Source: Denitrobaculum tricleocarpae (GTDB taxonomy: Bacteria; Pseudomonadota; Alphaproteobacteria; Kiloniellales; Kiloniellaceae). From it: a stretch of 64,000 bases of DNA. The stretch is from assembly GCF_007004665.1 (NCBI RefSeq), contig NZ_ML660055.1:1-64000 (forward strand), written 5' to 3'. The notes beneath the pieces were generated by a model. It was not told the origin of the DNA and made no database searches. It was given only the letters and a program-made list of their open reading frames with translations. Shown here piece by piece: positions 242-27,036 of the stretch (its first letter is position 1; each line of letters begins with the position of its first letter). Position numbers and translations under genes: made by a program.

Positions 242-973
242 CTAGAGCGTCACCCCGCCGATACTGGCGCCGCCACAGACATAGAGCGTCTGGCCGGTGA
301 CATAGCCGTTCAGCGGGTCGGCGAAAAAGAGGATGGCGCGCGCCACGTCGTCCACGGTGCCGATCCGGCCCACCGGCAGGGACTTTGCCAGTTTTTCTTG
401 CCGCTCGCTATCCTTCTCGATGATGCCCCAGAAGTTGTCGGTCAGCACCGGTCCCGGTGCGACCACATTCACCGTCACCCCATGCGGCCCCAGCTCCAGC
501 GCCCAGGTGCGCGCCATGCCGTGCAGACCGGCCTTGGAGTAGGAATAGGCCGTGCGCGTCTGGGCCCCCATGGCGGCCCGCGAGGAATTGAAGATGATCC
601 GCCCGAAACCTCGCGCCTTCATGGCCGGCAGAAAGGCCTTCACGAAGGTTAGCGCGGCGCCTGCGTGAAGCTGAGTCAGCTTGAGCAGGTCGTCGGGTTC
701 CGCCTCTTCGATCAGGTTCGGCAGGATAATCCCCGCGTTGTGAATGAAGTGGGTGACGTTCCCCATCCCGGCGATCTCGTCAGCTGCGCGTTGGGTCTCC
801 GCCGCATCGGTAAGATCCGCCTTCACCACTTTCAGCCGCTCGTGCGACCAGTCCGGCGCGCGCCGGGCAACCGAGATCACCTCGTAATCCAGATCCAGAA
901 GATCGCGGCAAAGACGTTCGCCAATCCCGGCGCTGCCGCCGGTGACAACGGCTGTAAAACGTTCCGTGCTCAC
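242..973 (-). CDS. SDR-family oxidoreductase, last gene of the Rieske/Ior operon
   Basis: This is a 243-residue classical short-chain dehydrogenase. It has the nucleotide-binding TGGSAGIG motif at residues 11-18, an HNAG motif, an active-site Ser in FNSSRAAMG, the YSYSK catalytic Tyr/Lys pair, and the APGPV loop. The GTG start at 973 lies 5 bases after the upstream stop and has GAGGAA before it, so it is chosen over a longer reading frame that would run into the cyclase gene in another phase. The operon context suggests oxidation of a ring cis-diol made by the Rieske dioxygenase, for example to a dioxindole (inference). The TAG stop lies inside the CTAG next to the insertion sequence, so the gene is intact. 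Confidence 0.88.
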   Translation of the reverse strand: MSTERFTAVVTGGSAGIGERLCRDLLDLDYEVISVARRAPDWSHERLKVVKADLTDAAETQRAADEIAGMGNVTHFIHNAGIILPNLIEEAEPDDLLKLTQLHAGAALTFVKAFLPAMKARGFGRIIFNSSRAAMGAQTRTAYSYSKAGLHGMARTWALELGPHGVTVNVVAPGPVLTDNFWGIIEKDSERQEKLAKSLPVGRIGTVDDVARAILFFADPLNGYVTGQTLYVCGGASIGGVTL

Positions 974-978
974 GCGTC

Positions 979-1779
979 TTATTCCTCCACCAGAGCCAGG
1001 ACCCGCAGAGGGCTTCCGGAGCCGTTCTTGATCTTGAGCGGCGGGCAGATCAGCAGCGCGCCGGTGGGCGGCAGCTGGTCGAGATTGGCAAGACACTGCA
1101 GGCCATAGCGCCCGGCGCCATGCAGCAGAAAGTGCGCGGGATAAGGCGGCGAGAGATGTCCGCCCTGTCCGGCGTCGGTACCGACACACTCGGTGCCGAA
1201 GCCGACCACGTTACGCTCCTCGATCAAAAAGGTGATCGCACTGGCATCGGGGCCGGGCGAGTGCGCGCCGTCATCCCGCAGATTGAGGTAGTCCGCCGCG
1301 CTGCGCTTCGACCAGTCGGTGCGCATCAGCACCCAGCAGCCTTCCGGGATTTTTCCGTGTTCGGCTTCCCAGGCGAGGAGGAAATCCCTGGTCATCAGGA
1401 AGTCTTCGTCCGCCGCCGCCTCCTTCACGCAGTCCACCACGCAGACCGCGCGCACGAAACCCTCGACCGGGATCGAGTCCACGCTGGCGTTCGGCAGATC
1501 CTTGCCCGAGACCCAGTGGATCGGCGCGTCGAAATGCGTGCCGGTATGCTCGTTGCAGGTAAAGTTCCGCCAGTACCAGGCGGGTCCGCGCTCGTCGTAG
1601 CGCGAGACCTCCTCGACGCGAAAGCGGGCGCACTGGCCGAACTCCGGCGGCAGGATGATCACTGGAAAATCAGGGTCGAGGGTATGGGTCAGGTCAATGG
1701 TGCGGATCTTGCCCGCCACCAGGGCCTCTGCCAGCGCGGGGAGGACCGTGCCTGGATTTGTGGTCAAATCTGCAGTCAT
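979..1779 (-). CDS. Cyclase-family metal hydrolase, probable isatin hydrolase
   Basis: This 266-residue protein belongs to the cyclase family (PF04199; kynurenine formamidase KynB and isatin hydrolase). The metal-binding signature EHTGTHFDAPIHW lies at residues 77-89 (His78, His82, Asp84, His88). The segments DLTHTLDPDFP, LPPEFGQ, GPAWYW and the C-terminal LPPTGALLICPPLKIKNG closely recall bacterial isatin hydrolases as I remember them, more than KynB. Predicted reaction: Mn-dependent hydrolysis of isatin to isatinate (2-aminophenylglyoxylate) in the cytoplasm. It follows the DUF35-SDR gene by 4 bases and is read with it. Cyclase function is certain at family level; the substrate is inferred from motif resemblance and context. 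Confidence 0.82.
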   Translation of the reverse strand: MTADLTTNPGTVLPALAEALVAGKIRTIDLTHTLDPDFPVIILPPEFGQCARFRVEEVSRYDERGPAWYWRNFTCNEHTGTHFDAPIHWVSGKDLPNASVDSIPVEGFVRAVCVVDCVKEAAADEDFLMTRDFLLAWEAEHGKIPEGCWVLMRTDWSKRSAADYLNLRDDGAHSPGPDASAITFLIEERNVVGFGTECVGTDAGQGGHLSPPYPAHFLLHGAGRYGLQCLANLDQLPPTGALLICPPLKIKNGSGSPLRVLALVEE

Positions 1780-1783
1780 GGCA

Positions 1784-3037
1784 TCAAGCTCCTTCCGGTT
1801 GGGTCAGTTCGCGCGCCAGTACACGGGGGTCCTGCTTCCAGCGCGTCAGGAAGTCTTCGGCGACCGCACCAACGGTCAGCTCTTCCAGCCCCTGCTGCAA
1901 AGCGCCGACAACGGCTTTGGCCAGCCCCTCGGGCGTGACCTTGGGCGGCGGCAGGTGCTGCCGCCAATCCTCCTCCAGCGGGCCGAAGAGCGCATTCAGC
2001 ACCTTGACGCCGGAACCGTGAAACTCGCCGCGCAGGCACTGGCTCAAGGAATAGGCTGCCGCCTGACTGGCCGAGGTCGAACCGTAGGCCGGCCAATTGG
2101 AAAGCGCGTAGACCGAGAGCAGATTGACCCAGGCGCAGGCGCTGTTTACGCCGTCGGCGCCCCTGAATCTCATCCCCGGTCCGAAGGCCTGGATCAGCCG
2201 CAGCGGGCCGAAGTAGTTCACTTCCATCTCGTCCCGCGCCGTGACGATCCCGTCCCGGTCCATCGCCCCACCTGCCCGGACGTACTCCGCCGTATTGATC
2301 AGAATATCGACCTTGCCGCCGATCTCACTGGCCAGTTCATTGACCGAGACCGTATCGGTCACGTCCAGCCCCATGACCTCGACATTGGGAATGGCCGCCA
2401 GCTCGTCGGCGCCTGCAAAGGGCCGCCAGGTTTCGGCAACCCCGACAAAGACCGTCGAGGCCCCGGCGGCGGACAGCGCCCTGGCCATGGCCTGTCCGAG
2501 CTGCGTGCGCCCGTCGGTGATCAGGACGCGGCGATGTTTCGGATCGCAGGTCAATTCCCGCAACTGCTTGTCGTCGGCCATATTTTCCGTCTCCTCCTCC
2601 GGCAGCGCCATGAGAACACCCTGACCCGATTTATCCGTGCGCGCGATCATGCGCACCCGACCGCCCTCGGCGACATCGCCGTGAATATGCGCCAGGACCG
2701 TAATCCCGGCTTCCAGCGCCACCGTCCCGACCCGCCAGGGTGTACGCTCCCGGAAATAGACGTTGGTGCTGGTCTGTATGGTGGTTTCGGCAATCAGCTC
2801 TCCACCCTCGGGCATGTCCCGCCAAGCCAGATTCATCGACAGGCATTTGGGGCAGGCTTCCCGCGGCGGGTAGGTGACCGCGTCGCAATCGTTGCACTTT
2901 TGCAGAACGAAGCGGCCTTCGGCTGCCGCGACGGTGAAGCCCAGGGCCCGGCGGCTGCGTGAAGTCGGCGGCAGGGTCGGCAGCACCGTGCGTTTTTGCG
3001 GATCTTTTCGCCTGGGGCGTTTGATCGCTTCGGTCAT
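1784..3037 (-). CDS. DUF35/OB-fold zinc-ribbon protein fused to a degenerate SDR domain
   Basis: This is a 417-residue two-domain protein. Residues about 35-145 form a DUF35 unit: a rubredoxin-like zinc ribbon with Cys48, Cys51, Cys62 and Cys65, then an OB fold. Such proteins partner with thiolase-like enzymes, for example in steroid side-chain retro-aldolases (Ltp2/ChsH2 type). Residues about 168-400 form an SDR-like Rossmann domain beginning VLITDGRTQLG. In this domain the expected YxxxK motif reads YGSTS (Tyr318, Ser322), so the catalytic Lys is absent, and NAG is replaced by NTA. It overlaps the thiolase-like gene by 4 bases, which supports a shared complex. A CoA-binding or structural role for the OB part is known for the family; the role of the SDR part is unknown. 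Confidence 0.82.
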   Translation of the reverse strand: MTEAIKRPRRKDPQKRTVLPTLPPTSRSRRALGFTVAAAEGRFVLQKCNDCDAVTYPPREACPKCLSMNLAWRDMPEGGELIAETTIQTSTNVYFRERTPWRVGTVALEAGITVLAHIHGDVAEGGRVRMIARTDKSGQGVLMALPEEETENMADDKQLRELTCDPKHRRVLITDGRTQLGQAMARALSAAGASTVFVGVAETWRPFAGADELAAIPNVEVMGLDVTDTVSVNELASEIGGKVDILINTAEYVRAGGAMDRDGIVTARDEMEVNYFGPLRLIQAFGPGMRFRGADGVNSACAWVNLLSVYALSNWPAYGSTSASQAAAYSLSQCLRGEFHGSGVKVLNALFGPLEEDWRQHLPPPKVTPEGLAKAVVGALQQGLEELTVGAVAEDFLTRWKQDPRVLARELTQPEGA

Positions 3038-4221
3038 GCGCCGGGCCCCGCCAGTGCCGCCGCGCCCGAACAGAGGCCGCGGTCGTAATTGATCATGCCG
3101 AAGCCCGAAACCACGGCGGTTTTGGCATCTTCGACCTGCCGCCCCAGGGCCGTTCCGGTCACCTGACGCAGGGCCTCGACCAGTCCCAGATAGCCGCCAG
3201 CGGCACCGGCCTGCCCGACCGAAAGCTGACCGCCGGAGGTGTTGTGCGGGAAGCTGCCGCCGTTGGTCAGATCGTGGCCGCGCACGAAGTCCGCCCCCTC
3301 CCCTTTTTTGCAGAAGCCGAGATCTTCGAACTGCATCATGGAGATCACCGGATAGTCATCGTAGGTCTCCAGCAGATCCACATCGTCCGGCGCAATGCCC
3401 GCCATGGCCCAGAATTCATCCCGGTCCATTTCCCAACCGCCCCGAATCTGAATAGGATCGTCGGGAAAGGCGTTGTGGCGCTCGATCGTCGACAGGACCC
3501 GCACGGCAGGAAGATCGAGGTTCTTTGCGGCGTCTTCGCTCATCACCAGGAAAGCCTCGGCTCCCGCGCAGGGCATGACGCAGTCAAAGAGCGCGATGGG
3601 GTCGGAGATCGGCCGGGCCGAGACGTATTGTTCCAGACTCAATGGCTTCTTCATCAGCGCGTGCGGAAAGCTCAGGGCGTTCTCGCGCTGGGCCATGCAG
3701 ATCTTGCCGAAATCCTCCCGCGTCGCGCCGGTGGTTTTCATGTAGTGATCGGTCATGAGGGCGAAGCTGGCGTTGGGACCGCCCGAGCCGTAGGGATAGG
3801 AAGCATCCTGGGCGAAGCGGCTGAAGCTGGAGAGCATCCGGCGGAAGGAATCCACGTGGTTGGCATCGCCGGAAACGCAGGCCACCATTTCCGCATCGCC
3901 GCACTGAACCGCCCGCGCCGCACGCCGTAAAGACACAACCCCGGACGCGCCCCCCATGGGAATGTGATCGAGCCAGCGCGGCGTAAGACCCAGATGCTGG
4001 GTCAGGCCCACCGCCGTATCGGGAAAGAGCGTGAAGGAGGAGACGCAGAAGCCATCGATATCCTGTGGCGTTATTCCTGCTGCACGCGCCAGATCACCCA
4101 GCGCCCGGGCAATCCACCAGTGCGCCGGTTCAGGAGAGTAACGCTGGTAGGGAACGGTAATCGGCACGGCGGCCACGACACCGTCATAGGCTTGCCGGAT
4201 CCTGGCATCCCGTTTGGTCAT
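3034..4221 (-). CDS. Thiolase-like protein (SCP-2/Ltp2 type), probable retro-aldolase subunit
   Basis: This 395-residue protein has the thiolase fold of the lipid-transfer-protein group. The nucleophile region reads MGGASGVVS with no Cys, and the usual GHP motif near the C-terminus is replaced in SGGQLSVGQAG. It therefore cannot be an ordinary Claisen thiolase. The ETYDDYPVI segment is typical of Ltp2-like proteins, which cleave beta-hydroxyacyl-CoAs by retro-aldol chemistry together with a DUF35 partner. That partner is encoded immediately downstream with a 4-base overlap. Predicted reaction here: release of acetyl-CoA from a tertiary 3-hydroxyacyl-CoA such as dioxindole-3-acetyl-CoA (inference). 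It also overlaps the upstream CoA ligase gene as ATGA. Confidence 0.82.
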   Translation of the reverse strand: MTKRDARIRQAYDGVVAAVPITVPYQRYSPEPAHWWIARALGDLARAAGITPQDIDGFCVSSFTLFPDTAVGLTQHLGLTPRWLDHIPMGGASGVVSLRRAARAVQCGDAEMVACVSGDANHVDSFRRMLSSFSRFAQDASYPYGSGGPNASFALMTDHYMKTTGATREDFGKICMAQRENALSFPHALMKKPLSLEQYVSARPISDPIALFDCVMPCAGAEAFLVMSEDAAKNLDLPAVRVLSTIERHNAFPDDPIQIRGGWEMDRDEFWAMAGIAPDDVDLLETYDDYPVISMMQFEDLGFCKKGEGADFVRGHDLTNGGSFPHNTSGGQLSVGQAGAAGGYLGLVEALRQVTGTALGRQVEDAKTAVVSGFGMINYDRGLCSGAAALAGPGA

Positions 4222-5879
4222 CAGGCGACCGCCCGCTTTTTCAGAGGACGCAGGTCCAGGGTATCTTCCCTGGCCCGAAGCTGTTCAACCAGCGCTTTCA
4301 ACTCGCCGCGCTGCACCTTATTCGTTGACGTCAACGGCAGGCTTTGGACAAAAGCCAGATAACCTGGCGCTTTGTAATAGGCAAGCTGCTCGAGGCACCA
4401 GCGCACGATATCTTCCGCCACTTCCCGTGCCCGTTCAGGTTCAAAGTCTTCAGACGGGACAACGCAGACAAAAACCTCATCTCCGCGAACAGGATCCGGT
4501 GTTGCCGCTACGGCTACGCCGGCGACCTGCGGATGGCGCAGCAACACGCCCTCCACTTCGATCGCGGCAATGTTCTCACCCGAACGGCGAATCACGTTCT
4601 TCTTGCGGTCAACAAAGGCCAGCGTGCCGTCCGCGTTGCGCCTTACGATATCTCCGGTATGGAACCAGCCGCCCCTCCAGGCCTCCTTGGTTGCGTCAGG
4701 GTCTTTCAAATAGCGGTCGAAGAAGCCGTAGCGAGGCTTTTCACCCTTGCGGCGGACCAGCAGTTCGCCGGCTTCGTCAACGCCCGCTTCGCCGCCGTCG
4801 TCCAGTTCGATCCGCACCGCGATATCCTCCTGCGGTTTGCCGAAGCAACGCGTGCCGATGTGACGAGGATCCTGAGATGCGGCCACCACGGCCCCATTGC
4901 CGGTCTCGGTCATCGCCCAGGCTTCGATCAACGGCACGCCGAAGCGTTCCTCGAAGGGCGCATGCAGGCGTTCTTCAACCCCGGCCCCGAAACCGAAGCG
5001 CAGAGTATGATTCTTGTCGTCCGATGATTCCGGCGCCGACATCAGCATGGCCGGCATGACGCCGAGATAATGCATCACGGTCGCTTTCGATTGACGCACC
5101 GAGTCCCACCAGCTCCTCGGGTGGAAACGGTCCAGCACGGTCAGGCAGCCGCCGACAGCAATCATGCCCATGGTCGAGCAAGCCAGGGCATTCATGTGAA
5201 ACAGCGGCAGCGGCGTGATCATCCGCTCGCCCGCCAGGTTCAATGCGCAGTGACCACCGACAAAGCGGTACCAATGACCGCAATTCAGAAAGTAACTGTT
5301 GTTGAGGACGCAACCCTTAGGCAGGCCGGTCGTGCCCGAGGTGTAGAGCAAAGCGGCCTCGTCATTGAAGCCTCCGCTCATCGCCTTGGCCTGCTCCGGT
5401 GCTCTGGGAAAGCTGTCATCAGGCCCCACGACCTGCAGACCGAATTCCGCGCTGGCTTTGGCCACATCCCGCTGGCGTGCTTCCAGAACGACGGCCAGAC
5501 TCATTTCAGAGTGCCCGACCAGGTAGGACAACTCGGCAGCCCTGAGGTCCGGATTGATCGGGACAATGGATACACCAAGACGGTTCAAGGCCAGCCAGTG
5601 GATCAGAAAGCTCGGCCGATTCTCCAGCAACAGGCCGATCCGGTGCCCCTTGCCGTAACCGGCGTGGCGGTAGGCGACGAAGAGGCTTTCGATCAACCCG
5701 GTTGCTTCGCCGTAGGTCAGTTCACCCGAAGTGATCCCGTAGATACCGGCGGTCTCCGGCAGGACATTGAAGAAGGGCCGGTCCGGAAAGGCCTGCGCTG
5801 TCGCCGCAAAGAAGGAATAGACATTGGCGAAACCCGCCGGATCCCGCAGTGCGATCGAAGTTTCCGTTTGGAAGGTCAT
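4221..5879 (-). CDS. AMP-forming acyl-CoA ligase
   Basis: This is a 552-residue adenylate-forming enzyme of the ANL superfamily. It carries the P-loop YTSGTTGLPKG, an AMTETGN acyl-adenylate motif, a WFHTGDI hinge motif and a C-terminal TSTNKVQRGELK region holding the catalytic Lys. The ATG at 5879 is chosen because it begins a normal N-terminus (MTFQTETSIALRD) and follows the dioxygenase small-subunit stop by 10 bases; the longer frame would overlap that gene. Its place between the dioxygenase and the thiolase-like protein suggests it activates the oxygenated carboxylic acid as a CoA thioester before side-chain cleavage. The exact substrate cannot be read from the sequence. Confidence 0.88.
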   Translation of the reverse strand: MTFQTETSIALRDPAGFANVYSFFAATAQAFPDRPFFNVLPETAGIYGITSGELTYGEATGLIESLFVAYRHAGYGKGHRIGLLLENRPSFLIHWLALNRLGVSIVPINPDLRAAELSYLVGHSEMSLAVVLEARQRDVAKASAEFGLQVVGPDDSFPRAPEQAKAMSGGFNDEAALLYTSGTTGLPKGCVLNNSYFLNCGHWYRFVGGHCALNLAGERMITPLPLFHMNALACSTMGMIAVGGCLTVLDRFHPRSWWDSVRQSKATVMHYLGVMPAMLMSAPESSDDKNHTLRFGFGAGVEERLHAPFEERFGVPLIEAWAMTETGNGAVVAASQDPRHIGTRCFGKPQEDIAVRIELDDGGEAGVDEAGELLVRRKGEKPRYGFFDRYLKDPDATKEAWRGGWFHTGDIVRRNADGTLAFVDRKKNVIRRSGENIAAIEVEGVLLRHPQVAGVAVAATPDPVRGDEVFVCVVPSEDFEPERAREVAEDIVRWCLEQLAYYKAPGYLAFVQSLPLTSTNKVQRGELKALVEQLRAREDTLDLRPLKKRAVA

Positions 5880-5889
5880 GGGATCGTCA

Positions 5890-6369
5890 TCACACAAAAA
5901 GCTGGATGTTGCGGTGAGGCGCATCGCAGTTCACCAGATCGACACGCTTGCACTTGATCATCAGTTTGCCCTCGACGACAGCAAGCTTGTGACGCGCCCA
6001 GCCCGCCAGCAGAGTCTGTTCGTCAAAGCGCGTCTCAACGTAATGGAAAGGCGTGTAGGTACGATAGAGATTTTCCTCGTGATTGATCTCATCGATCGCG
6101 GGCATCTGCAGCAGATGCTGACAACGGCTTTTCGGTTTTTGCGAATAGGTCCGCTGCCCTTCCAGCCGTTGAACGCGCGTGCGCAGCAGCAATCTGTCTT
6201 CGTACATCAGCGACGTGGTCAGGTGCTCCTCTTCCTGGTCCGGTTCCAGAGGCATCCAGTAGATCCCGTCTTCCGTGAAGAGGTCGAGCCACTCGGGAAA
6301 GCGGCGCTCGTCAATCATCCGCGCCTCGGCAATCACGAAGTCGATCAGGTCCTGTTCCGTCGGAGTCAT
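5890..6369 (-). CDS. Aromatic-ring-hydroxylating dioxygenase, small (beta) subunit
   Basis: This 159-residue protein has the cone-shaped NTF2-like fold of ring-hydroxylating dioxygenase beta subunits. Recognisable segments are EARMIDERRFPEWLDLF, YWMPLEPDQ, YEDRLLLRTRV and a C-terminal RNIQLFV. The beta subunit is structural, completing an alpha3beta3 hexamer. It overlaps the alpha-subunit gene by 4 bases (ATGA), so the two are translationally coupled. Length and motifs are normal for the family. Confidence 0.92.
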   Translation of the reverse strand: MTPTEQDLIDFVIAEARMIDERRFPEWLDLFTEDGIYWMPLEPDQEEEHLTTSLMYEDRLLLRTRVQRLEGQRTYSQKPKSRCQHLLQMPAIDEINHEENLYRTYTPFHYVETRFDEQTLLAGWARHKLAVVEGKLMIKCKRVDLVNCDAPHRNIQLFV

Positions 6370-7715
6370 GCCGCTGATCCTCGTGCATTGGCGGCTTCAG
6401 CCGCATCGAGGGTCATGAACTTTTCCCAGGCCCGGAATTGATTGCGCATCTGCGCCTCGGTGGTCCCGTTGTATGTCGCGTTGGGCGTCTCGCTTTCTGC
6501 CGGGTCGTAAAGCCGCTGCATATTGACCCACTGGTTGCCGTCACTGGCGAGGCCGGCCTGCGCACGCTCATACATCTCCAGATCGTCATGGCCGACGATG
6601 GAGGTCGGTGCATTAATTAGCCGGTTGTACATCGCAGTGCGGTGCAGCAGTTTGTCCGGCGCGCCAACCAGGCGGAAGATCCAGGACTCCACCAGCGTCT
6701 TGTCGGCCGCGAGTGGCTTGAAGAGGCGCAGGGACTGGATCGGTCCTTTTATCATCATATTGGGAAAGTAAACGGTGTTGTGGCGATTTTCATCGAGGAT
6801 CTCTCTCGCCCGCGCCTCGCCATAGGCCGCAACCATCTTCTCGAAATAGCCCTCTATCGCCGAGTAGTCGGAATGGATAGAGTGATGAACACCGGTATGG
6901 CCGTGACCGTTTTCCCAGGTGCGGATGCCCATATTCTCGAAGAATTCGTAAGGCGACGTGAAAGGCAGAATGCACTCCACTGCCATGGGCTTGGGCCCGT
7001 CGCCGCCTTCCTGCTCCCAGATTTCCCTGACCGTACCCGCCGAAGACTCGTGAGCGACCATGGGGTGGCAGGTGTCGGTCTGGTTCTCGACCAGCATCTT
7101 CCAATTGCAGTGATGCATGTAGCGCAGCGGGCTGCCCACGACCTCGAGACGCCCCTCGGGTGAGCGGTCAATCATGTTGTCCAGGCTGGAGAGCGACTCA
7201 CCGAAAAAGCTGTCGAAGTCCGGGCCGGCATCGTTCATCTTGGCGAAGATAAAGCCGCGGTAGTTTTTGGCGTGCGCCACGGGTGTCATGCCTTTGGCCG
7301 CACAGGATTCCTGCAATCCTGAATCCTCGTAGCCCTTTTTCAGGGGCACCGCCAGCAGGCTGCCGTCGGTCTTGAAAGACCAGGCGTGGTAGGGACAGCG
7401 GAAGAACTTACCGGTATTTCCCTGCCGGTCGATGACCACCTGCGTGCCCTTGTGGGGGCAACGGTTGAAGAGAACACGGATCGAGTCATCGCTATGCCGC
7501 ACCATCAGGATCGGCTGGGTGCCGATCTCGGTCGCAGCATAATCGCCTTTGTTGGGGATTTGGCTTTCGTGACCGACATAGATCCAGGCGTTGCGGAAGA
7601 GATGCGCCATCTCGAGCGCGAAGACTTCGGGACTGCAATAGAGATCCCGGTGTACCTCACCCTCCCGGATTAGGCCCCGGACCTTGTCTTTGAGTTCGCC
7701 GCTTGTCAGGTTCAT
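6366..7715 (-). CDS. Rieske non-heme iron dioxygenase, large (alpha) subunit
   Basis: This 449-residue protein carries a Rieske [2Fe-2S] site with Cys86, His88, Cys107 and His110 (RCPHKG and RCPYHAW). The mononuclear iron site is formed by Asp214, His217 and His222 in DTCHPMVAH. The ATG at 7715 follows AGGGGAG and begins MNLTSGELKD; an upstream ATG in the same frame would overlap the reductase gene. Predicted reaction: NADH-driven dihydroxylation of an aromatic acid. With isatin hydrolase and IorAB in the same operon, an indole-type ring such as indole-3-acetate is the favoured substrate (inference). A benzoate-type substrate is the main alternative. Confidence 0.92.
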   Translation of the reverse strand: MNLTSGELKDKVRGLIREGEVHRDLYCSPEVFALEMAHLFRNAWIYVGHESQIPNKGDYAATEIGTQPILMVRHSDDSIRVLFNRCPHKGTQVVIDRQGNTGKFFRCPYHAWSFKTDGSLLAVPLKKGYEDSGLQESCAAKGMTPVAHAKNYRGFIFAKMNDAGPDFDSFFGESLSSLDNMIDRSPEGRLEVVGSPLRYMHHCNWKMLVENQTDTCHPMVAHESSAGTVREIWEQEGGDGPKPMAVECILPFTSPYEFFENMGIRTWENGHGHTGVHHSIHSDYSAIEGYFEKMVAAYGEARAREILDENRHNTVYFPNMMIKGPIQSLRLFKPLAADKTLVESWIFRLVGAPDKLLHRTAMYNRLINAPTSIVGHDDLEMYERAQAGLASDGNQWVNMQRLYDPAESETPNATYNGTTEAQMRNQFRAWEKFMTLDAAEAANARGSAA

Positions 7716-7728
7716 TTGCCATGCTCCC

Positions 7729-8694
7729 CTAAAGATCGAGAACCAGTTTCGCAGAGTGGGCGCGGGACACACAGATCTGCATCACCTTGCCGCTGGCTTT
7801 CTCGCTATCCGTCAAAACAACGTCACGGTGATCCGGCTCGCCGGAGATCACATCGGTCTGGCAGATCCCACAATCGCCGCGCTGACAGTCGTAGATCAGA
7901 TCCTGTCCGGCGGCCTCGAGCACTTCGATGATGCTTTTTCCGACAGGCACGGTGAAGCTCTCACCGCTCGAAGCGATTTCAACTTCGAAAGGCTTGTCCC
8001 CGGTTTGCGCGACGGGTGGCGTGAAGAGTTCGAAATGAATGCGCTCTTCCGGCCAGCCGCGTTGCCGCGCCGCTGCCTGGACCGCCTCGATCATCGGCTT
8101 CGGTCCGCAGACGTAGAGGTGGCTCTCGGGATCGGCAGCCGATAAGAGGACCCCGGCGTCGAGGTATCCACCGCTGAGATCGTCGTAATGCTCGATCAGT
8201 TTCTCACCGAGAAGCGCGCGCAGCGGCGCGATAAAGGCGAGACTGCCCTGCGCGCGGCCGGAATAATGCAGGATGAAGTCGCGCTTCTGCCGCAACAATG
8301 CGCTGGCCATGGAGGCAATCGGTGTGATCCCGATGCCACCGGCCATCAGAACGACCGGCGCCGGACCGTCAATCAAGGCAAAGTCGTTCTTGGGCAGAGT
8401 CACGGAAAGACGGTCACCCGGTTTTAATCCGTGCATGAAAGAGGAACCGCCCTGGGACGCTTCTTCCAGCCGCACGCCAAGCCTGTATCGGGAACCGCCC
8501 TGCGTTGGCTCGACGCCCGGATCGAGATTGACGAGAGAATAGGGCCGGTCGTCGCCGTTCGGAAGCGACACCCTGATGTGTGATCCCGGGCTGTATCCTG
8601 GAAGGTCGTCTCCGGCGGTTGAGGCGAGTTCGAAAGAACGCACCATCGGCGCTTCCTCCGTTACCGCAATGACTTTAAGTTCGAGCGTGGACAT
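7729..8694 (-). CDS. Dioxygenase reductase (flavin plus C-terminal [2Fe-2S] ferredoxin domain)
   Basis: This 321-residue protein matches the phthalate dioxygenase reductase/VanB layout. A flavin-binding barrel with RPYSLVN (residues 50-56) comes first. A pyridine nucleotide domain with AGGIGITPI follows. A plant-type ferredoxin domain with CQRGDCGICQT and a later Cys in MQICVSRAH is at the C-terminus. It passes electrons from NAD(P)H to the Rieske cluster of the neighbouring alpha subunit. Its start codon lies directly after the upstream stop codon, and the alpha-subunit gene starts 13 bases after its own end, so the whole electron-transfer system is one transcription unit. Confidence 0.92.
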   Translation of the reverse strand: MSTLELKVIAVTEEAPMVRSFELASTAGDDLPGYSPGSHIRVSLPNGDDRPYSLVNLDPGVEPTQGGSRYRLGVRLEEASQGGSSFMHGLKPGDRLSVTLPKNDFALIDGPAPVVLMAGGIGITPIASMASALLRQKRDFILHYSGRAQGSLAFIAPLRALLGEKLIEHYDDLSGGYLDAGVLLSAADPESHLYVCGPKPMIEAVQAAARQRGWPEERIHFELFTPPVAQTGDKPFEVEIASSGESFTVPVGKSIIEVLEAAGQDLIYDCQRGDCGICQTDVISGEPDHRDVVLTDSEKASGKVMQICVSRAHSAKLVLDL

Positions 8695-10245
8695 TCAGGC
8701 GACTTCCGACTTGGATCCGGTGAAACTCCGGATGGTCTTCAAAGCGCCTGCGAGCGCCGTCCCTTCGCTGTCCTGCAGAGCAGCCTCATGCAGACGGCGC
8801 GCCCAATCGGCTGCGTCACTGCGGCCCCGAACCAATTCTATCCCCTGCATGACCTGATCGAACTTGCTGATGGAGCGTTCATGGGTATCGCTGTAGCCCT
8901 TGATCAGGCGGCGGCAACGGGCGATCTCAACCGAGAGATCGTAGTCGTCGCTCGCTGTACGGGTCACATTTGCCAGCCAACGCCGGGTATGTTCGGTCTC
9001 GATTTCGTGGCGCAGCAGCTTCCGGCGCCAGCGGCGCAGGGACGAGAGAAAATAGAGCGAGAGAAAACCGCGCAGACTGTCGCTTCGCACCCGCTTGCTG
9101 CCCGTGAAGAGAGACAGCACCCAGCGAACCAGCTTCTTGCCTTCAATGTTCCGGCCCAGAGAAGCCGGGAGCAAACCGGCCAGTTCCTCGACGCGCGGAT
9201 GCATGAACTCGGTGATGGTGACGACCTGTCCGTCCTGGGCGGAAATGTCGTCGCGCACGCGCGAGAAACGCCGGCTGCGCGATTTCAGATCGGCCACGCG
9301 GATAACATCCTGATAACTCATGGCCGTTGCCAGATATTTGCCGATCGTAACAGTCAAAGCATAGTCTTGCTTTGCGCCATCGAGCCGTTTCTCCAGAGCA
9401 AGAATTTCATCCAGCCGGTCCAGGTACTCCTCGCCGTAGGCAGTGTCCTGAAAATCGATGACACGATTGAGGCCCGCCGTCAGAAGCGGCACGACAGCAT
9501 CGGGGAAAGACGTCTGGGCGCGCTGGGTCAGCGCCGCGTAGTTCTCTTGCTCTTCGGCGGAGCCTCCTTCCAGCTTTGGCAAAGCGGGACGACCGGATGG
9601 AACCTCATCCTGCGCTTCCTCAGTCAGGCACGTGAACGCGGCATCAAAAGCCCGCAAGCTGGCTTCGACACCAACGCCGCCGGAGCGGATCGCATCTTCG
9701 AAGGCCGCGCGCGGAAAGGGCAAAACACCCGAGCTGGCGATGGCGCCGAAGAGACTGGCGGAAATGACACTCCCGTTGGCCGAGGCGACCGCCGCCAGGT
9801 CGGCTTTCAGAAAGCGCTTGGCCGCCAGCGCTGCGGCGACCTCGACCGCTTGCGGGTCATTGATCCCATCTCCAGGCCGGGATTTCTCCGCCACGGCCAG
9901 CGAGCGATGGGTCGAAGCGATCAGGGTCGTACGGTCCGGCGAAACAAGACCACGCTGAATGGCCCGCCCGGCTTCCATCCATTCCGCGGCCACGACGAGA
10001 TCCACGTCCCCCGGCGTCGGCATCAGGGCCAGCACCGGGGCCTGCGCGCCGGCCTTGATCATCTCGAGATAATAGACGGTCGCACCGGTCCGCTGGGCCA
10101 CGCCGGGAACCGAAGTTGCCTGAACCACCCAACCGCAGGATTCTGCCAGTGCCACCAGCCAGTTGGAAACCACGCCGCCGCCCTGTCCGCCGATGGCAAG
10201 GACGGCAATGCAAAGGGGCCGGTCCTGGGACAGCACATCACTCAT
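8695..10245 (-). CDS. Indolepyruvate/2-oxoacid:ferredoxin oxidoreductase, beta (IorB-like) subunit
   Basis: This 516-residue protein starts with the gamma-type 2-oxoacid oxidoreductase domain (IAVLAIGGQGGGVVSNWL; residues about 12-200). It continues with the long C-terminal DUF6537-type extension seen in bacterial IorB homologues. It overlaps the alpha-subunit gene by 4 bases. The pair decarboxylates a 2-oxoacid to an acyl-CoA with ferredoxin as acceptor. In this operon the obvious 2-oxoacid is isatinate (2-aminophenylglyoxylate), the product of the predicted isatin hydrolase; that assignment is inference. The classical substrate indolepyruvate is the alternative. Confidence 0.85.
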   Translation of the reverse strand: MSDVLSQDRPLCIAVLAIGGQGGGVVSNWLVALAESCGWVVQATSVPGVAQRTGATVYYLEMIKAGAQAPVLALMPTPGDVDLVVAAEWMEAGRAIQRGLVSPDRTTLIASTHRSLAVAEKSRPGDGINDPQAVEVAAALAAKRFLKADLAAVASANGSVISASLFGAIASSGVLPFPRAAFEDAIRSGGVGVEASLRAFDAAFTCLTEEAQDEVPSGRPALPKLEGGSAEEQENYAALTQRAQTSFPDAVVPLLTAGLNRVIDFQDTAYGEEYLDRLDEILALEKRLDGAKQDYALTVTIGKYLATAMSYQDVIRVADLKSRSRRFSRVRDDISAQDGQVVTITEFMHPRVEELAGLLPASLGRNIEGKKLVRWVLSLFTGSKRVRSDSLRGFLSLYFLSSLRRWRRKLLRHEIETEHTRRWLANVTRTASDDYDLSVEIARCRRLIKGYSDTHERSISKFDQVMQGIELVRGRSDAADWARRLHEAALQDSEGTALAGALKTIRSFTGSKSEVA

Positions 10246-12404
10246 GACGGGGCTCCCCCGCCGGGTTCCTGGAGGTATCGGGCGTCGCGCCGCTGTTGAA
10301 GCCGCGTCGTGACGGCGTTGCGCAAGCCGGCAAGCCTGCTGTCCCAGAAACTCGGATTATGCACCGCATCGGCACGATAGAAGGACGGACAGAGCACGGC
10401 GGCATCGGCCACTTCACCGCAGTGGCCGCAGGCGACGCAGGAGTTGTCGACAAAGGCCACCGGATCGTCCCGCAACGGATCCTCGGTTTCCTTCAGGGTC
10501 AGCGAGGGGCAGCCCGAGATCCGGATACAGGCGTGGTCGCCGGTGCAGACATCTTCATCGACACCGAACTTCTGCTCGACCACCCGCTTGCCTTCACTAC
10601 GCGCCTTGCGCCGGATCGGGCGTTCGCGGCGCTGACGGTTGAGCATACATTCGCTGGACGCGATCACCACCTTCGGCCCGCGCTCGGGTGTGGTCAGCGC
10701 TTCCTCGATCACATCGCGCATCGCCCCGACATCGTAGGTGTGATCGATCCGCCGGACCCATTTCACCCCAACGCCCTTGACTGCATCCTCGATCGGATGG
10801 CGGGTCGAGCGGCTGACGTTGCCGGCGCGGGACGAGAGGATGTCCTGCCCGCCGGTCGCAGCAGAGTAGTAGTTGTCAACGATCAGAATGACATCGTCGC
10901 TCTTGTTGAAGACCGCGTTGCCGACGCCGCTGACCAGACCGTTATGCCAGAAACCGCCGTCACCCATGATCGAGATCGAGCGCTTGCCCTGCGCCACATT
11001 CAGGCCGGAAGCCGAGGCCGCGCCGAGACCGTACCCCATTGTGCTGGCGCCCAAGTTGAAGGGCGGTAGAATAGAGAAAAGATGGCAGCCGATATCGCAG
11101 GCGATGTGGCGCTCGCCAACCTCCTGCTGCGCCAGGGTCAGCGCGGAGAAAATCGGACGCTCCGGACAGCCTGTGCAGAAGCCGGCCGGGCGCGGCGGCA
11201 CGGCCTCGTTCAGGGCGTCGGTAACCTCGCCGGGCAGAGACGGCCCCAGCGAGACCTCGGCGGGCGCAACGGCGGTGTCATTCAGGGTTTCAAGAAAAGC
11301 GCCGATTCCCTCGATCAGCGCCTTGTTGGTGTATTCGCCGGCCTTCGGCAAAACGTCCTTTCCGTGCAGCGCGGTCGCGACGCCCGCCCGGCGCAGAGTT
11401 GTGCTGACTGCCTGCTCCAGATGATCCGGCTGCCCCTCTTCGACCATCAGGACCGCGCGCTTGTCGCGGCAAAAATCAACGACTTCATCATCGATCAGCG
11501 GATAGGTGACGTTGAGTACATAAAGCGGAATGCGGGTCTTGCCGTAGACATCCGCCAATCCGAGCTGGCGCAACGCGGCGATCACACCGTTGTAGTGGCC
11601 GCCCTGCAGAACGATACCGACGTCTTCGATGTCGCCTTCGAAAAACTCGTTGAGTTTGCGTGACTTGATGAACTCGACCGCCGCCGGCCAGCGTTGGGCC
11701 ACCTTCTCCTGTTCATGAGCGAAGGACGCAGGCGGAAGAACGATCCGGTCCGTCTCGCGCCGGGGGTGGTTACGCGCCTGCTCCAGCGTGAACGCGGGCC
11801 GGACATTGTCGCGGGTCTGAAAGGAACCATGGACATGGCAGGCCCGGATGCGCAATTCCAGCATGACGGGCGTATTGCTCGCCTCGGAAAGCTCAAAACC
11901 GTCCCGTACGGCTTTGACGATCGACTCTGCATTTGGGCGGGGATCCAGCAGCCAGATCTGGGACTTCATGGCAAAAGCGTGCGAGCGCTCCTGCATGATC
12001 GAAGAGCCTTCACCGTAATCCTCGCCGACGATGATCAGCGCACCGCCGGTCACACCGCCGGAAGCCAGATTTGCCAGAGCATCGGAGGCGACGTTTGTAC
12101 CGACCGTCGATTTCCAGGTCGCCGCGCCACGGATCGGATAGTGCATGGAAGCAGACAGCATCGCGGCAGCGGCGGCTTCGCTGGCACTGGCTTCGAAATG
12201 CACGCCAAGCTCGCCCAGAATCTCTTCGGCGTCGGAGAGAACATCCATCAGGTGCGAGATCGGCGCGCCCTGATAGCCGCCGACATACCCGACCCCAGCC
12301 TCAAGCAAGGCCTTGGTCACCGCAAGAATACCTTCGCCCCGAAAGGTCTCTCCTGCACCCAGCCGTAGCGCCTGCACCTCCTGAACAAAAGACCGTTCAG
12401 CCAA
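10242..12404 (-). CDS. Indolepyruvate/2-oxoacid:ferredoxin oxidoreductase, alpha (IorA-like) subunit
   Basis: This protein is about 720 residues from a TTG start. It has an N-terminal pyrimidine-binding domain (GGYQGAPISHLMD), a C-terminal TPP-binding domain (GDGGFWHNG and later DNYY), and two 4Fe-4S motifs near the end (CTGDHAC...GCPSL and CVACGHC). The TTG at 12404 has GGAGG six bases upstream and begins MAERSFVQEVQ. An in-frame ATG at 12461 lacks a ribosome site and would add 19 residues without family resemblance. This is the first gene of the leftward operon and faces marR across a 178-base promoter region. Confidence 0.87.
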   Translation of the reverse strand: MAERSFVQEVQALRLGAGETFRGEGILAVTKALLEAGVGYVGGYQGAPISHLMDVLSDAEEILGELGVHFEASASEAAAAAMLSASMHYPIRGAATWKSTVGTNVASDALANLASGGVTGGALIIVGEDYGEGSSIMQERSHAFAMKSQIWLLDPRPNAESIVKAVRDGFELSEASNTPVMLELRIRACHVHGSFQTRDNVRPAFTLEQARNHPRRETDRIVLPPASFAHEQEKVAQRWPAAVEFIKSRKLNEFFEGDIEDVGIVLQGGHYNGVIAALRQLGLADVYGKTRIPLYVLNVTYPLIDDEVVDFCRDKRAVLMVEEGQPDHLEQAVSTTLRRAGVATALHGKDVLPKAGEYTNKALIEGIGAFLETLNDTAVAPAEVSLGPSLPGEVTDALNEAVPPRPAGFCTGCPERPIFSALTLAQQEVGERHIACDIGCHLFSILPPFNLGASTMGYGLGAASASGLNVAQGKRSISIMGDGGFWHNGLVSGVGNAVFNKSDDVILIVDNYYSAATGGQDILSSRAGNVSRSTRHPIEDAVKGVGVKWVRRIDHTYDVGAMRDVIEEALTTPERGPKVVIASSECMLNRQRRERPIRRKARSEGKRVVEQKFGVDEDVCTGDHACIRISGCPSLTLKETEDPLRDDPVAFVDNSCVACGHCGEVADAAVLCPSFYRADAVHNPSFWDSRLAGLRNAVTTRLQQRRDARYLQEPGGGAPS

Positions 12405-12470
12405 CGCCCACCTCCGATCGATCCAGCCTGCAGAGCCTACCTCAACCCGCACCGCCGGCATTTATATTCT

Positions 12471-12582: not shown

Positions 12583-13122
12583 ATGACAAGCTTACAGCAG
12601 TTGAAGTTGACCGAAGACAGCGCCGCTCCCTTTGTGGACAGCTATCTCCTGTACCTGCTGGCCGCGGCCAGCCACGCACTCTCGAGTCAATTTCACACTG
12701 AAGTCAAAGCCCAGGGCGTGAAAGTACAGACCTGGCGCGTCCTTGCCTGCCTGATCGACCGCCCCGGACTGATGCTGACCGAACTGGCGCAGTTCGTCCT
12801 GCTGGAGCAATCGCATCTGACCAAGATTATCGACCAGCTCCAAATCTCTGGACTGGTCGACAAGCAGCACGACACGACGGACCGGCGCAAAATCAAAATA
12901 TACATCACAGATCGCGGCCGGGAGCTGGTGGCTCCCCTGATCACCACCGCAAAGTCTCACGAGCGCGAAGCCACTGAAGTCCTTACCCGCGCGGAAGAAA
13001 AGAACCTGAAGGCCATCCTTCACAAGCTGATCCGGCAGCAGCGTCAGGCGAGACGCCGGTCAGATCCGAAGGAAGGCCGTCAACTTGAGCCGATTGGAAC
13101 CCGAAGCGAACGGGAGGCGTGA
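12583..13122 (+). CDS. MarR-family transcriptional regulator
   Basis: This 179-residue protein has the MarR winged helix. The recognition region runs through MLTELAQFVLLEQSHLTKII, followed by the wing DTTDRRKIKIYITDRG with the conserved DxR motif. It is transcribed away from the IorA operon and sits between that operon and the TRAP transporter. MarR proteins usually repress divergent catabolic genes and release DNA when bound by the aromatic substrate or its CoA ester. Shared TTTCATAT half-sites at both flanking promoters support control of both units. MarR regulators are a known partner of auxin-degradation loci; the ligand here is not proven. Confidence 0.92.
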   Translation: MTSLQQLKLTEDSAAPFVDSYLLYLLAAASHALSSQFHTEVKAQGVKVQTWRVLACLIDRPGLMLTELAQFVLLEQSHLTKIIDQLQISGLVDKQHDTTDRRKIKIYITDRGRELVAPLITTAKSHEREATEVLTRAEEKNLKAILHKLIRQQRQARRRSDPKEGRQLEPIGTRSEREA

Positions 13123-13536: not shown

Positions 13537-14559
13537 ATGAATTTTTTCAAACCGGTTGCGGCCGTTGCTCTGGGCGCGGCCCTCTCGGCATCGACGGCGA
13601 TCACCGCCTTTGCTGCGGATACAACCCTGGTCATTTCGAGCTGGGCGCCGCCGACACATGGCATGAACGCCAAAATGTGGCCGAAGCTTACCAAGATGAT
13701 CGAAGAGGCCACTGAAGGACGGGTCACAGCAGAAATCAAGTACAAGCTGGCGCCGCCCCCTGCGCAGTTTGATCTGATTCAGGACGGTGCCGCCGATCTC
13801 ACCTGGATTTTCCACGGATACAACCCTGGCCGCTTCGTCGCCACGCAGCTGATCGAACTGCCGGGTTATCAGGGGTCTGCCGAAGCCGCTTCCGTCGCTT
13901 ATTGGCGCGCTTACGAAAAGTACCTGAAGTCAGCCAACGAGCACAGGGGCGTGAAACTGGTGGCCCTGCACACACACGGCCCGGGACAGCTGCACAGCTC
14001 AACGAAAGTGACTGAGCTGGATCAGATCAAAGGCATGAAGCTGCGCCTCGGCGGCGGCGTGTCGGGCGCGGTCGGCGATGCCCTGGGCGCAACCGGCATC
14101 CGGGTCCCCGCCCCCAAGGTATACGAGACGCTGGCCTCGAACGCCGCCGACGGTGTCATGATGCCCATGGAAGGCAAGAAAGGCTTTAAGCTCACCGAAG
14201 TGGCACAGCACAGCTATGTCATGCCGGGCGGCTTTTATCGCGGCTCTTTCGCGCTGATCATGAACCAGGAAAAGTTCGAGTCTCTTTCCAAAGCTGACCA
14301 GGACGCCCTGATGACGGTGTTCGGCGAGCCCGCTTCACGCATGGCCGGCCAGGTGTGGGATGAGATCGACGCCATCGGTGTCGAGGCCACCGAGTCGACG
14401 GCAGACAATTCCCTGAACACGGCAAGTGAAGCCGATCGGAAGGCCTATGATGCCATCGCGGCGCCAATCATCGAAGCTGCCATCAAGGCGGCAACGGACA
14501 AAGGCGTCGATGCCAAAGCCGCGGTCGAATTTATCGCCAGCGACATGGCGGCAAACTAG
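13537..14559 (+). CDS. TRAP transporter substrate-binding protein (DctP family)
   Basis: This 340-residue periplasmic protein has a signal peptide (MNFFKPVAAVALGAALSAS, cleavage near AFA-AD). The mature part is DctP-like, with VISSWAPPTHGMN at the start and MKLRLGGGVSGAVG in the ligand region, where DctP proteins normally place an Arg that binds a carboxylate. AGGGAGAAG precedes the ATG. Together with the two membrane subunits downstream it should import an organic acid by a sodium or proton gradient. Shared MarR-type operator sequences point to the aromatic acid degraded by the adjacent operon. Confidence 0.92.
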   Translation: MNFFKPVAAVALGAALSASTAITAFAADTTLVISSWAPPTHGMNAKMWPKLTKMIEEATEGRVTAEIKYKLAPPPAQFDLIQDGAADLTWIFHGYNPGRFVATQLIELPGYQGSAEAASVAYWRAYEKYLKSANEHRGVKLVALHTHGPGQLHSSTKVTELDQIKGMKLRLGGGVSGAVGDALGATGIRVPAPKVYETLASNAADGVMMPMEGKKGFKLTEVAQHSYVMPGGFYRGSFALIMNQEKFESLSKADQDALMTVFGEPASRMAGQVWDEIDAIGVEATESTADNSLNTASEADRKAYDAIAAPIIEAAIKAATDKGVDAKAAVEFIASDMAAN

Positions 14560-14607
14560 AGCGCGGCGGGTCGCAAAACGAAAACTGCCGTTCGAGTTCG
14601 TTTCTCT

Positions 14608-15132
14608 ATGAACACAAACTCTCGATCACAAGAAGGCGCGTGGGCCCGTCACGCACTGGCTCATGCGCCCTCTTATCTCGCCGCGACGGCACTCTTCGCC
14701 CTCATGGCCATGACCTTTGCGGACGTGGTGCTGCGCAGCGTCTTTAACAGCCCGATCTCCGCGGCCACGGAGCTCACCCGGCTTTTCATGGCGATCACGG
14801 TCTTTTCGTCGCTTCCAGTCATAAGCTGGCGTGGTGAACATATTGTGGTGGATCTACTTGACCCCTTCGTTCGGGGCCGCGCGGCGCAAGTCCGTGACGT
14901 GCTGATCGACGCTCTGGCGGGGATCGTCATCTTCTGGCCGGCCATTCGCGTATACGAATTGGCCGAACGGGCCAAGCAATACGGCGACACCACCGAATAT
15001 CTCCAGATCCCGCAGTTTTACATCGCGTACTTCATTGCTTTCAGCACCTTCGTTACAGCGTTGATCCTGTTGCTGCGTGCGGTTATCCGCGCCGTGGCGC
15101 CGGACTATCTGGCTACGATCAAAAACGCATGA
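14608..15132 (+). CDS. TRAP transporter small permease (DctQ family)
   Basis: This 174-residue membrane protein has four predicted transmembrane helices. Typical DctQ features are FADVVLRSVFNSPISAATELTR in the first half and TEYLQIPQFYIAYFI in the last part. It scaffolds the large permease subunit. It lies 48 bases after the substrate-binding protein gene and 67 bases before the chosen start of the large permease. Length and topology are normal for the family. Confidence 0.9.
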   Translation: MNTNSRSQEGAWARHALAHAPSYLAATALFALMAMTFADVVLRSVFNSPISAATELTRLFMAITVFSSLPVISWRGEHIVVDLLDPFVRGRAAQVRDVLIDALAGIVIFWPAIRVYELAERAKQYGDTTEYLQIPQFYIAYFIAFSTFVTALILLLRAVIRAVAPDYLATIKNA

Positions 15133-15199
15133 AGTCTTCCCGCAGAAAGCCCCTGGCGGAAAAACCAGGCGCCGCGCCCGTTTCCATGAGGCCCTCTTC

Positions 15200-20011: not shown

Positions 20012-20026
20012 GCTGCTGTTTCCCGC

Positions 20027-20055
20027 CCCGGCCGGAGGCACAGCCTCCGGCCGGG
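20027..20055 (+). terminator. Strong hairpin between the binding-protein and permease genes
   Basis: CCCGGCCGGAGGC (20027-20039) pairs perfectly with GCCTCCGGCCGGG (20043-20055) around the loop ACA. No T-run follows, so complete termination is unlikely. Such hairpins after binding-protein genes usually protect the upstream mRNA from 3' decay and lower expression of the downstream membrane components. Confidence 0.7.
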
Positions 20056-20189
20056 TAAACGTCTGCTTTGCTTCCTCTTGTGATAAAGCACAGGGAACCT
20101 GGTACCGGGCCGCAATTGCAGCGCCCGCGGAAAACCGATCCCGTACACGAAATTCGCCAAGATTCCCCGCCGGGGTGTGAGAGAAAAAC

Positions 20190-21062: not shown

Positions 21063-21065
21063 GCC

Positions 21066-25560: not shown

Positions 25561-25566
25561 AGCACC

Positions 25567-26388: not shown

Positions 26389-26392
26389 TGCG

Positions 26393-26860
26393 ATGACAGC
26401 CCTCCAGGCAACGAGCCCACTCCCGACACTGCCCGGAGACGTCGTTGCCCTGCCCGCACGCCCACATCACCCGGGGACGGGAAGCGTCGCGGACATGGCG
26501 CTGCTGGAAGAGGTCAAGCAAGCCTGTCCCGAAAGAACTGACCCCGGGAAATGGCGCCAGAACCGGACCTACCGATATGGCTGGTCTCTGTTCGAAGCGG
26601 GGTTTTATTGGGAAGCCCACGAGGTTTGGGAGCCGGTTTGGCTAGCGTGCCGACCCAACAGCCTGGAAAAGTCATTTCTGCGAGCGGCGATTCAATTGAC
26701 CAACGCCTGTCTGAAAGACGCGATGGGCAAGACGAACGCGGCCCGGCGGTTGTTTGATGAAGTCGAGGGGCTGGTGAGTGAACTGAAAACAGCATTGGGA
26801 GCCGAGAACACATCCTACATGGGTGTCGATATGACGAGGTTCGCTCGACGGGAGAGCTGA
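26393..26860 (+). CDS. DUF309 family protein
   Basis: This 155-residue protein carries the DUF309 signature FEAGFYWEAHEVWEPVWLACR near residues 60-80, with the usual His/Glu pair. The N-terminal 45 residues are Pro-rich and not conserved. It is the last gene before the boxC promoter. The molecular role of DUF309 is not established; its place at the end of the ligase/hydrolase unit suggests an accessory role in the same pathway, but nothing stronger. Confidence 0.78.
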   Translation: MTALQATSPLPTLPGDVVALPARPHHPGTGSVADMALLEEVKQACPERTDPGKWRQNRTYRYGWSLFEAGFYWEAHEVWEPVWLACRPNSLEKSFLRAAIQLTNACLKDAMGKTNAARRLFDEVEGLVSELKTALGAENTSYMGVDMTRFARRES

Positions 26861-26864
26861 GAAG

Positions 26865-26951: not shown

Positions 26952-27036
26952 TCTAATCAAGAGCTCGGCAGAGCCAACTCGATACCGGTGACCGCTGCAA
27001 CGGTGGACAGGCCGGATAAAGGGACGAAAAAGAGAG

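Follow-up and report, generated by a model that had tools for sequence, protein, structure and literature searches.

What can a thiolase without its nucleophile do together with a dehydrogenase that has lost its catalytic residues? The question is raised by two genes on the minus strand, iadG and iadH, in a 64,000-nucleotide stretch of DNA from Denitrobaculum tricleocarpae (contig NZ_ML660055.1, positions 1 to 64,000; this whole stretch is called the window below). Both genes are open reading frames at the positions given in Table 1, and the four-base overlap mentioned in a preliminary description of the sequence was confirmed (3034–3037). From sequence comparison, structural models and analogy with solved enzymes, we propose, with a probability of roughly 70%, that IadG acts as a retro-aldolase with a thiolase fold and IadH as its DUF35 partner carrying a pseudo-SDR (short-chain dehydrogenase/reductase) domain, and that the pair would cleave dioxindole-3-acetyl-coenzyme A (CoA) in the degradation of indole-3-acetate (IAA, auxin). 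Variovorax and Bradyrhizobium rely on the iad pathway to rescue plant roots exposed to too much auxin, and engineers are introducing it into inoculants; for its C–C cleavage step, from dioxindole-3-acetate to isatin, annotation has so far been the sole basis of assignment.

The iad operon and the cleavage step

The two proteins can be named from their neighbours. Judged by gene content and order (iadR-A-B-C-D-E-F-G-H-I-J), the locus in the window is a complete iad operon, with the same genes in the same order as in Variovorax paradoxus CL14, Bradyrhizobium and Ruegeria pomeroyi, and the two proteins studied here are therefore assigned as IadG and IadH. The R. pomeroyi and Labrenzia plasmids share the C-D-E-F-G-H-I-J order. 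In a comparison with the PDB, the Rieske α subunit matches IadD structures with an E-value of 2.8e-184, compared with 5.6e-41 for the next family, and the best match of the divergent regulator (PDB entry 3cdh) is the IAA-binding MarR protein of R. pomeroyi according to Conway et al. (PMC9613470). This operon identity had been overlooked in the preliminary description. The operon and its genes are already known; the retro-aldolase role of IadG and IadH, as suggested by their sequences, is best read as a correction of the published annotation. No retro-aldol step in the iad pathway was found in the literature searched, which was not covered exhaustively.

Degradation of IAA by R. pomeroyi, B. 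japonicum and Variovorax has been reported, with detection of dioxindole, isatin and isatinic acid in Variovorax cultures (Conway et al., PMC9613470), and the conversion of IAA into dioxindole-3-acetate by IadCDE and IadJ has been shown by others in Variovorax. According to a 2025 preprint, the deletion of iadF, iadG, iadH or iadI leads to the accumulation of C10H9NO4, assigned as dioxindole-3-acetic acid, and anthranilate is lowered on deleting iadF, iadG or iadH (PMC12633357). The need for IadF, IadG, IadH and IadI, as well as the metabolites isatin, isatinate and anthranilate, has hence been shown by others. In the same preprint, the roles given to IadG and IadH are those of a ketothiolase and an alcohol dehydrogenase, respectively; they derive solely from annotation (PMC12633357) and differ from those proposed here.

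IadF would make the CoA thioester of dioxindole-3-acetate. The product would be a tertiary 3-hydroxyacyl-CoA, with the tertiary alcohol β to the thioester, and since this alcohol cannot be oxidized to a 3-ketoacyl-CoA, thiolysis would be chemically closed. Ltp2 solves the same tertiary-alcohol problem in steroid side chains, likewise on a DUF35 domain. Tyr287 of IadG would take the proton of the C3-hydroxyl, the C3–CH2 bond would break and the acetyl-CoA enolate would be protonated, assisted by Asp289, to leave isatin and acetyl-CoA; Tyr287 as the base, and Asp289 as a relay or acid, are proposals. IadI would then open isatin to isatinate, and the SDR domain of IadH would carry out no NAD(P)H chemistry, being kept as a structural or ligand-handling module. 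If this is true, the cleavage would be explained without thiolysis or a reductant, the pathway would yield acetyl-CoA and isatin, and the isatin hydrolase would get its proper substrate. The small family of such enzymes, known from steroids, would also gain a substrate derived from indole and an active site of the Tyr-Asp type.

The active site of IadG

The family set used throughout comprises 43 full-length IadH and 41 IadG sequences from public genomes of Alpha-, Beta- and Gammaproteobacteria. A C-terminal thiolase domain is found in IadG by Pfam. The canonical catalytic residues of thiolases are missing, as the preliminary description had noted: GGAS stands at the Cys site and GQA at the GHP site, and the nucleophilic Cys is absent from IadG throughout the alignment (40/40). 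A structural model of IadG, built with 19 sequences (mean predicted local distance difference test score, pLDDT, of 75.8; predicted template-modelling score of 0.83), was compared with the PDB. The bile-acid side-chain aldolase Sal of Comamonas testosteroni (CtSal; PDB entry 9myr, template-modelling score 0.83; PMC12329534) comes first and TcLtp2 (PDB entry 6ok1) next, with Sal/Ltp2 structures occupying ranks 1–3 and true thiolases all lower. Ranking by sequence profiles also places CtSal first, and Ltp2 third.

In CtSal, Tyr302 and Cys304 of the YDCY motif are catalytic, and a Gly at the Cys position excludes thiolysis (PMC12329534). When IadG is aligned with segments of the CtSal and Ltp2 sequences, Tyr302 corresponds to Y287, Cys304 to D289, Gln347 to Q332, Gln352 to Q337, Arg216 to R203, Asn162 to N150 and Gly89 to G91. 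IadG thus has both hallmarks of Sal and Ltp2, the YDx(F/Y) motif with its catalytic Tyr and a Gly replacing Cys, Y287 and G91 being invariant. The Asp at the third position of YDDY sets IadG apart: among 28 other thiolase-like relatives, retrieved by a class-wide search, this position is A, S, C, N or H and never D.

The Sal–Shy(DUF35) and Ltp2–ChsH2(DUF35) systems provide the closest comparisons. Like IadG and IadH, Sal–Shy(DUF35) combines a Cys-less thiolase fold bearing the Tyr of YDxY, and equivalents of the two Gln residues, with a DUF35 partner that is a separate protein and carries a fused second domain, and it cleaves β-hydroxyacyl-CoA, the chemistry that we propose for IadG and IadH. 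However, Sal reads YDCY and Shy has a Cys3His zinc ribbon, whereas IadG reads YDDY and IadH has a canonical C4 ribbon; moreover, the second domain of Shy is an active MaoC hydratase and the substrate a steroid, compared with a degenerate SDR domain and a proposed oxindole substrate for IadH and its partner. Ltp2–ChsH2(DUF35), a C3 steroid side-chain aldolase, shares the fold, the DUF35 partner with a C4 zinc site, the YDx(F/Y) motif, the cleavage of a tertiary-alcohol acyl-CoA (proposed in our case) and a partner with a catalytically inert domain, namely the MaoC domain of ChsH2. It differs in its YDHF motif and its second catalytic residue Tyr344, against YDDY and Gln337 in IadG, and in the MaoC nature of the partner domain, against SDR in IadH (the residue roles for Ltp2 are taken from the Sal paper, PMC12329534). 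Thiolase-fold proteins with a DUF35 partner are also found in the BbsAB benzoylsuccinyl-CoA thiolase, in the archaeal thiolase/3-hydroxy-3-methylglutaryl-CoA synthase–DUF35 complex and in PhlABC, but these lie below Sal and Ltp2 in the fold and profile rankings for IadG and have no SDR fusion.

Several points weigh against a retro-aldolase role. Where CtSal has its oxyanion residues Gln161 and Gly391, the alignment shows Pro149 and Met376 in IadG, although a Pro at the Gln161 position is also found in Ltp2. The known proton donors are both replaced, Cys304 of Sal by Asp289 and Tyr344 of Ltp2 by Gln337, and the C304A, C304S and C304H variants of CtSal are all dead (PMC12329534). The proton donor of IadG must therefore differ from that of CtSal, and IadG is considered here to be a functional variant, neither a Sal nor an Ltp2. 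The loop 329–341, which holds Q332 and Q337, has a pLDDT below 50 in the model. Finally, C8H7NO2, a compound with two more hydrogens than isatin, builds up without iadI, which was read by the authors as a reductive removal involving IadH (PMC12633357). Against these points stand the top-ranking folds of CtSal and TcLtp2, the invariant Tyr and an operon predicted to supply dioxindole-3-acetyl-CoA; taken together, they give good support to the earlier suggestion of a DUF35-coupled, Cys-less retro-aldolase acting on a tertiary 3-hydroxyacyl-CoA.

The DUF35 and SDR domains of IadH

The domain layout previously described for IadH, a four-Cys zinc ribbon and an OB (oligonucleotide/oligosaccharide-binding) fold followed by an SDR domain, was recovered by Pfam. 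The N-terminal half matches zf-ChsH2 (E-value 8e-14) and OB_ChsH2_C (1.5e-9), both over the Pfam cut-offs, and the C-terminal half matches adh_short (1.4e-15). The four zinc-ribbon Cys residues are conserved in 43/43 full-length IadH, with the usual C4 spacing. IadH thus has the zinc ribbon and OB fold of the DUF35 partners of Sal and Ltp2, and by analogy with the Sal–Shy(DUF35) and Ltp2–ChsH2(DUF35) complexes its OB fold would be the module expected to dock onto IadG.

The fold of the SDR domain is retained. The IadH model has a mean pLDDT of 79.5, and its SDR domain superimposes on chain B of PDB entry 5u4s, of the PRK08264 subfamily, over 235 residues (Z 29.6, root-mean-square deviation 2.4 Å), with 29–32% sequence identity; with the entire IadH model the matches of the fold search were taken up by SDRs, and this search is uninformative on the DUF35 half. 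A Rossmann SDR fold is hence present, without the TGxxxGxG and YxxxK motifs of active classical SDRs. The loss of the catalytic Lys had been seen in the preliminary description, with YxxxK read as YGSTS. The Lys is indeed lost, but the register was wrong: alignment with 5u4s and 16 standalone SDRs rules out YGSTS and places the column at T321-S-A-S-Q325, so that the Tyr is lost as well. Two further changes had passed unnoticed, namely NTAE in place of NNAG and TDGRTQLG in place of TGxxxGxG.

These losses extend across the family. The first Gly of TGxxxGxG is Asp or Asn in 43/43 IadH and the second position is never Gly; the Arg just after β2, present in all standalone relatives, is Ala, Ser or Cys in 43/43, and the Gly of NNAG is lost in 41/43. 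As far as the canonical site is concerned, nucleotide binding by the Rossmann domain, as suggested earlier, is thus unsupported. The Tyr and Lys columns run through 13 combinations (T-Q, F-K, Y-Q, H-H, A-A and others), with both residues kept in a single sequence, from the locus that we call L061. Retention of the Lys is confined to the betaproteobacterial clade, of whose 12 sequences 11 have Phe in place of Tyr. A functional retention of YxxxK in L061 was considered and rejected: this sequence is nested inside the Phe-Lys clade, looks like a single Phe-to-Tyr reversal and, as in the rest of the family, has neither the first two Gly of TGxxxGxG nor the Arg that follows β2. By comparison, both motifs are intact (TGGSAGIG and YSYSK) in IadJ, the operon's active SDR.

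The nearest solved SDR, 5u4s, reads LSASK, with a Leu at the Tyr column, and is NADP-bound according to its title; in this SDR branch, a Tyr loss outside IadH has therefore not cost the protein its cofactor. It keeps the Gly motif and the Lys, whereas IadH lacks the former and the IadH of the window also the latter.

The ratio dN/dS (nonsynonymous to synonymous substitution rates) of the SDR domain is only 0.02–0.07 in four close pairs, similar to that of the DUF35 half and of IadG, and 28 conserved positions of the domain are specific to IadH (including D175, A201, W204, R292, D295 and W358). Given this low ratio and the lost cofactor and catalytic motifs, the domain is, as far as sequences tell, under strong purifying selection, yet not for classical redox work. 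IadH would thus be a clear example of an SDR that has been conserved although its cofactor and catalytic residues are gone. The plainest guess, by comparison with the MaoC domain of ChsH2, which is inert (PMC11321319), is a role in structure or ligand handling. A more specific scheme, which we regard as rather doubtful, is that the domain has become a new binding module of the pathway: the old dinucleotide cleft, rebuilt with conserved residues specific to the family (D175, R/K177, A201 and W204), may hold CoA, dioxindole-3-acetyl-CoA or isatin and pass the reactive isatin from IadG to IadI. The aldolase site would be of a Tyr-Asp (YDDY) kind that none of the other thiolase-fold enzymes examined shows.

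The genomic survey couples the two proteins. At every sufficiently long locus with a full-length IadH, iadG adjoins iadH, and iadI adjoins at nearly all. In the phylogeny the DUF35–SDR fusions form one clade separate from the standalone SDRs (support 100/100), and on this sequence basis the fusion is of single origin. A common fusion with a conserved Lys elsewhere in the site, which the preliminary description had named as damaging to its reading, was not encountered in the way it had been meant: the fusion is common, but within the sample it occurs only in iad loci, and the Lys is confined to the clade mentioned above. No fusion outside iad was recognized among 30 loci fetched from 115 alphaproteobacterial genomes after a PF12172 search, the unfetched matches being unchecked. 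The long open frames of these loci were screened with a CxxC...CxxC filter; apart from the window and locus L088 they are upstream read-through, and L088, which holds the sole further fusion recognized in the fetched zf-ChsH2 set, encodes an IadH as well.

Alternative readings and genomic surroundings

Could the published labels nevertheless be right? A ketothiolase IadG and an NAD(P)H-dependent alcohol dehydrogenase IadH that jointly produce C8H7NO2 by reductive removal of the acetyl group would account for the accumulation of this compound in the iadI mutant and in strains with iadCDEFGH_JK2 (PMC12633357); generic models do label IadG relatives as acetyl-CoA acetyltransferase (PRK06158), and the IadH of L061 has YxxxK. 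We consider this unlikely, because the nucleophilic Cys is missing from every IadG aligned, dioxindole-3-acetyl-CoA offers no 3-keto group, Tyr and/or Lys is absent from 42/43 IadH and the cofactor residues from all of them, L061 included. Dioxindole (C8H7NO2) can arise from isatin through unspecific reduction, and the reported compound fits such a product. The same accumulation could be invoked for an aldolase whose SDR domain has a real, atypical redox function, for example in reducing isatin to dioxindole, and the retention of Asn274 (37/43) and Ser308 (40/43) of the SDR tetrad, together with the strong purifying selection, would agree with it. The loss of the cofactor motif in 43/43 and Tyr/Lys columns that vary unlike a catalytic dyad make it improbable.

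A different chemistry would be the thiolysis by IadG–IadH of a ring-opened β-ketoacyl-CoA, 2-formamidobenzoylacetyl-CoA, with IadI as a formamidase. In favour of this reading, the corresponding free acid shares the formula C10H9NO4, 2-aminobenzoyl-CoA is the end point of the anaerobic IAA pathway and IadI lies within the cyclase/kynurenine formamidase superfamily. However, deuterium tracing shows that C10H9NO4 loses one deuterium and that only four aromatic deuteriums, and no formyl deuterium, are found downstream, and C8H7NO3 was shown not to be N-formylanthranilate (PMC12633357). IadI matches isatin hydrolase A far better than arylformamidase (E-values of 4e-130 and only 9e-6, respectively), and IadG has no Cys for a thiolysis. 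This possibility appears highly improbable, and we retain the retro-aldol cleavage of dioxindole-3-acetyl-CoA by IadG with IadH as its DUF35 partner.

Table 1. Positions of the iad genes, of the domains and motifs of IadG and IadH and of the box genes in the window.
Feature	Position	Strand	Basis
iadJ, standalone SDR, active-SDR control	242..988	-	domain search, motif
iadI, isatin hydrolase	979..1779	-	PDB 5nna/5nnb, isatin hydrolase A
iadH, DUF35 (zinc ribbon and OB fold) fused to catalytically degenerate SDR domain, 417 aa	1784..3037	-	domain search, alignment
IadH SDR (Rossmann) domain, residues 165-412, putative pseudo-enzyme	1802..2545	-	adh_short; 5u4s_B fold match
IadH YxxxK column T321-SAS-Q325 (Tyr to Thr, Lys to Gln)	2063..2077	-	alignment to SDRs
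IadH YGSTS (Y318-S322), earlier misread as YxxxK	2072..2086	-	starts three residues upstream of aligned column
IadH degenerate cofactor motif TDGRTQLG	2495..2518	-	alignment of 43 IadH
IadH OB fold (OB_ChsH2_C)	2600..2830	-	Pfam
IadH zinc ribbon (zf-ChsH2), C48-x2-C51-x10-C62-x2-C65	2831..2929	-	Pfam
iadG, thiolase-fold protein without nucleophilic Cys, proposed retro-aldolase, 395 aa	3034..4221	-	domain, profile and fold search
IadG Y287-D-D289-Y290, equivalent of CtSal Y302-D-C304-Y and TcLtp2 YDHF	3352..3363	-	invariant in 41/41
IadG G90-G91-A92-S93 at nucleophile loop	3943..3954	-	GG in 40/40
iadF, AMP-forming acyl-CoA ligase	4221..5924	-	domain search
iadE, ring-hydroxylating oxygenase β subunit	5890..6369	-	domain search
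iadD, Rieske oxygenase α subunit	6366..7772	-	PDB 7yls/8h2t (E 2.8e-184), 9o71 (E 1e-183)
iadC, ferredoxin reductase component	7729..8694	-	domain search
iadB/iorB, indolepyruvate oxidoreductase β family	8695..10245	-	NF006179, above cut-off
iadA, indolepyruvate ferredoxin oxidoreductase α-like	10242..12461	-	TIGR03336 (E 4e-84), below cut-off
iadR, MarR regulator, divergent from iadA	12583..13122	+	best PDB match 3cdh (E 1e-35)
Benzoate-CoA ligase family	24025-25560		box cluster
α/β hydrolase	25567-26388		box cluster
BoxC	27037-28686		above NCBIfam cut-off
BoxB	28720-30168		above NCBIfam cut-off
BoxA	30165-31385		above NCBIfam cut-off

The iadAB genes (8695–12461) encode an indolepyruvate-ferredoxin-oxidoreductase-like pair; since isatinate is an aryl 2-oxoacid, its oxidative decarboxylation to anthraniloyl-CoA by this pair is plausible. 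Further along the window, a box cluster (aerobic benzoyl-CoA) is found at 24025–31385, about 11 kb from iadR. A TRAP (tripartite ATP-independent periplasmic) transporter follows iadR on the plus strand (13537–16513; DctP at 13537–14559 and DctM at 15077–16513), and a urea/branched-chain-type ATP-binding cassette transporter (18842–23486) lies ahead of the box genes; both are candidate uptake systems for aromatic acids. At the contig end, directly downstream of iadJ, the minus strand of positions 1–175 carries the start of an IS4/5-family (insertion sequence) transposase, truncated by the contig end (DUF4096, E-value 3.9e-15).

Finally, eight of the surveyed loci (L015, L016, L020, L022, L023, L030, L031 and L032) have more distant IadD and IadE (42–46% and 31–37% identity, respectively), located after iadJ and not before iadF where the position was checked, with IadG, IadH and IadI still about 59–77% identical. 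From these sequences, the oxygenase seems to have been exchanged at such loci and the cleavage module retained.

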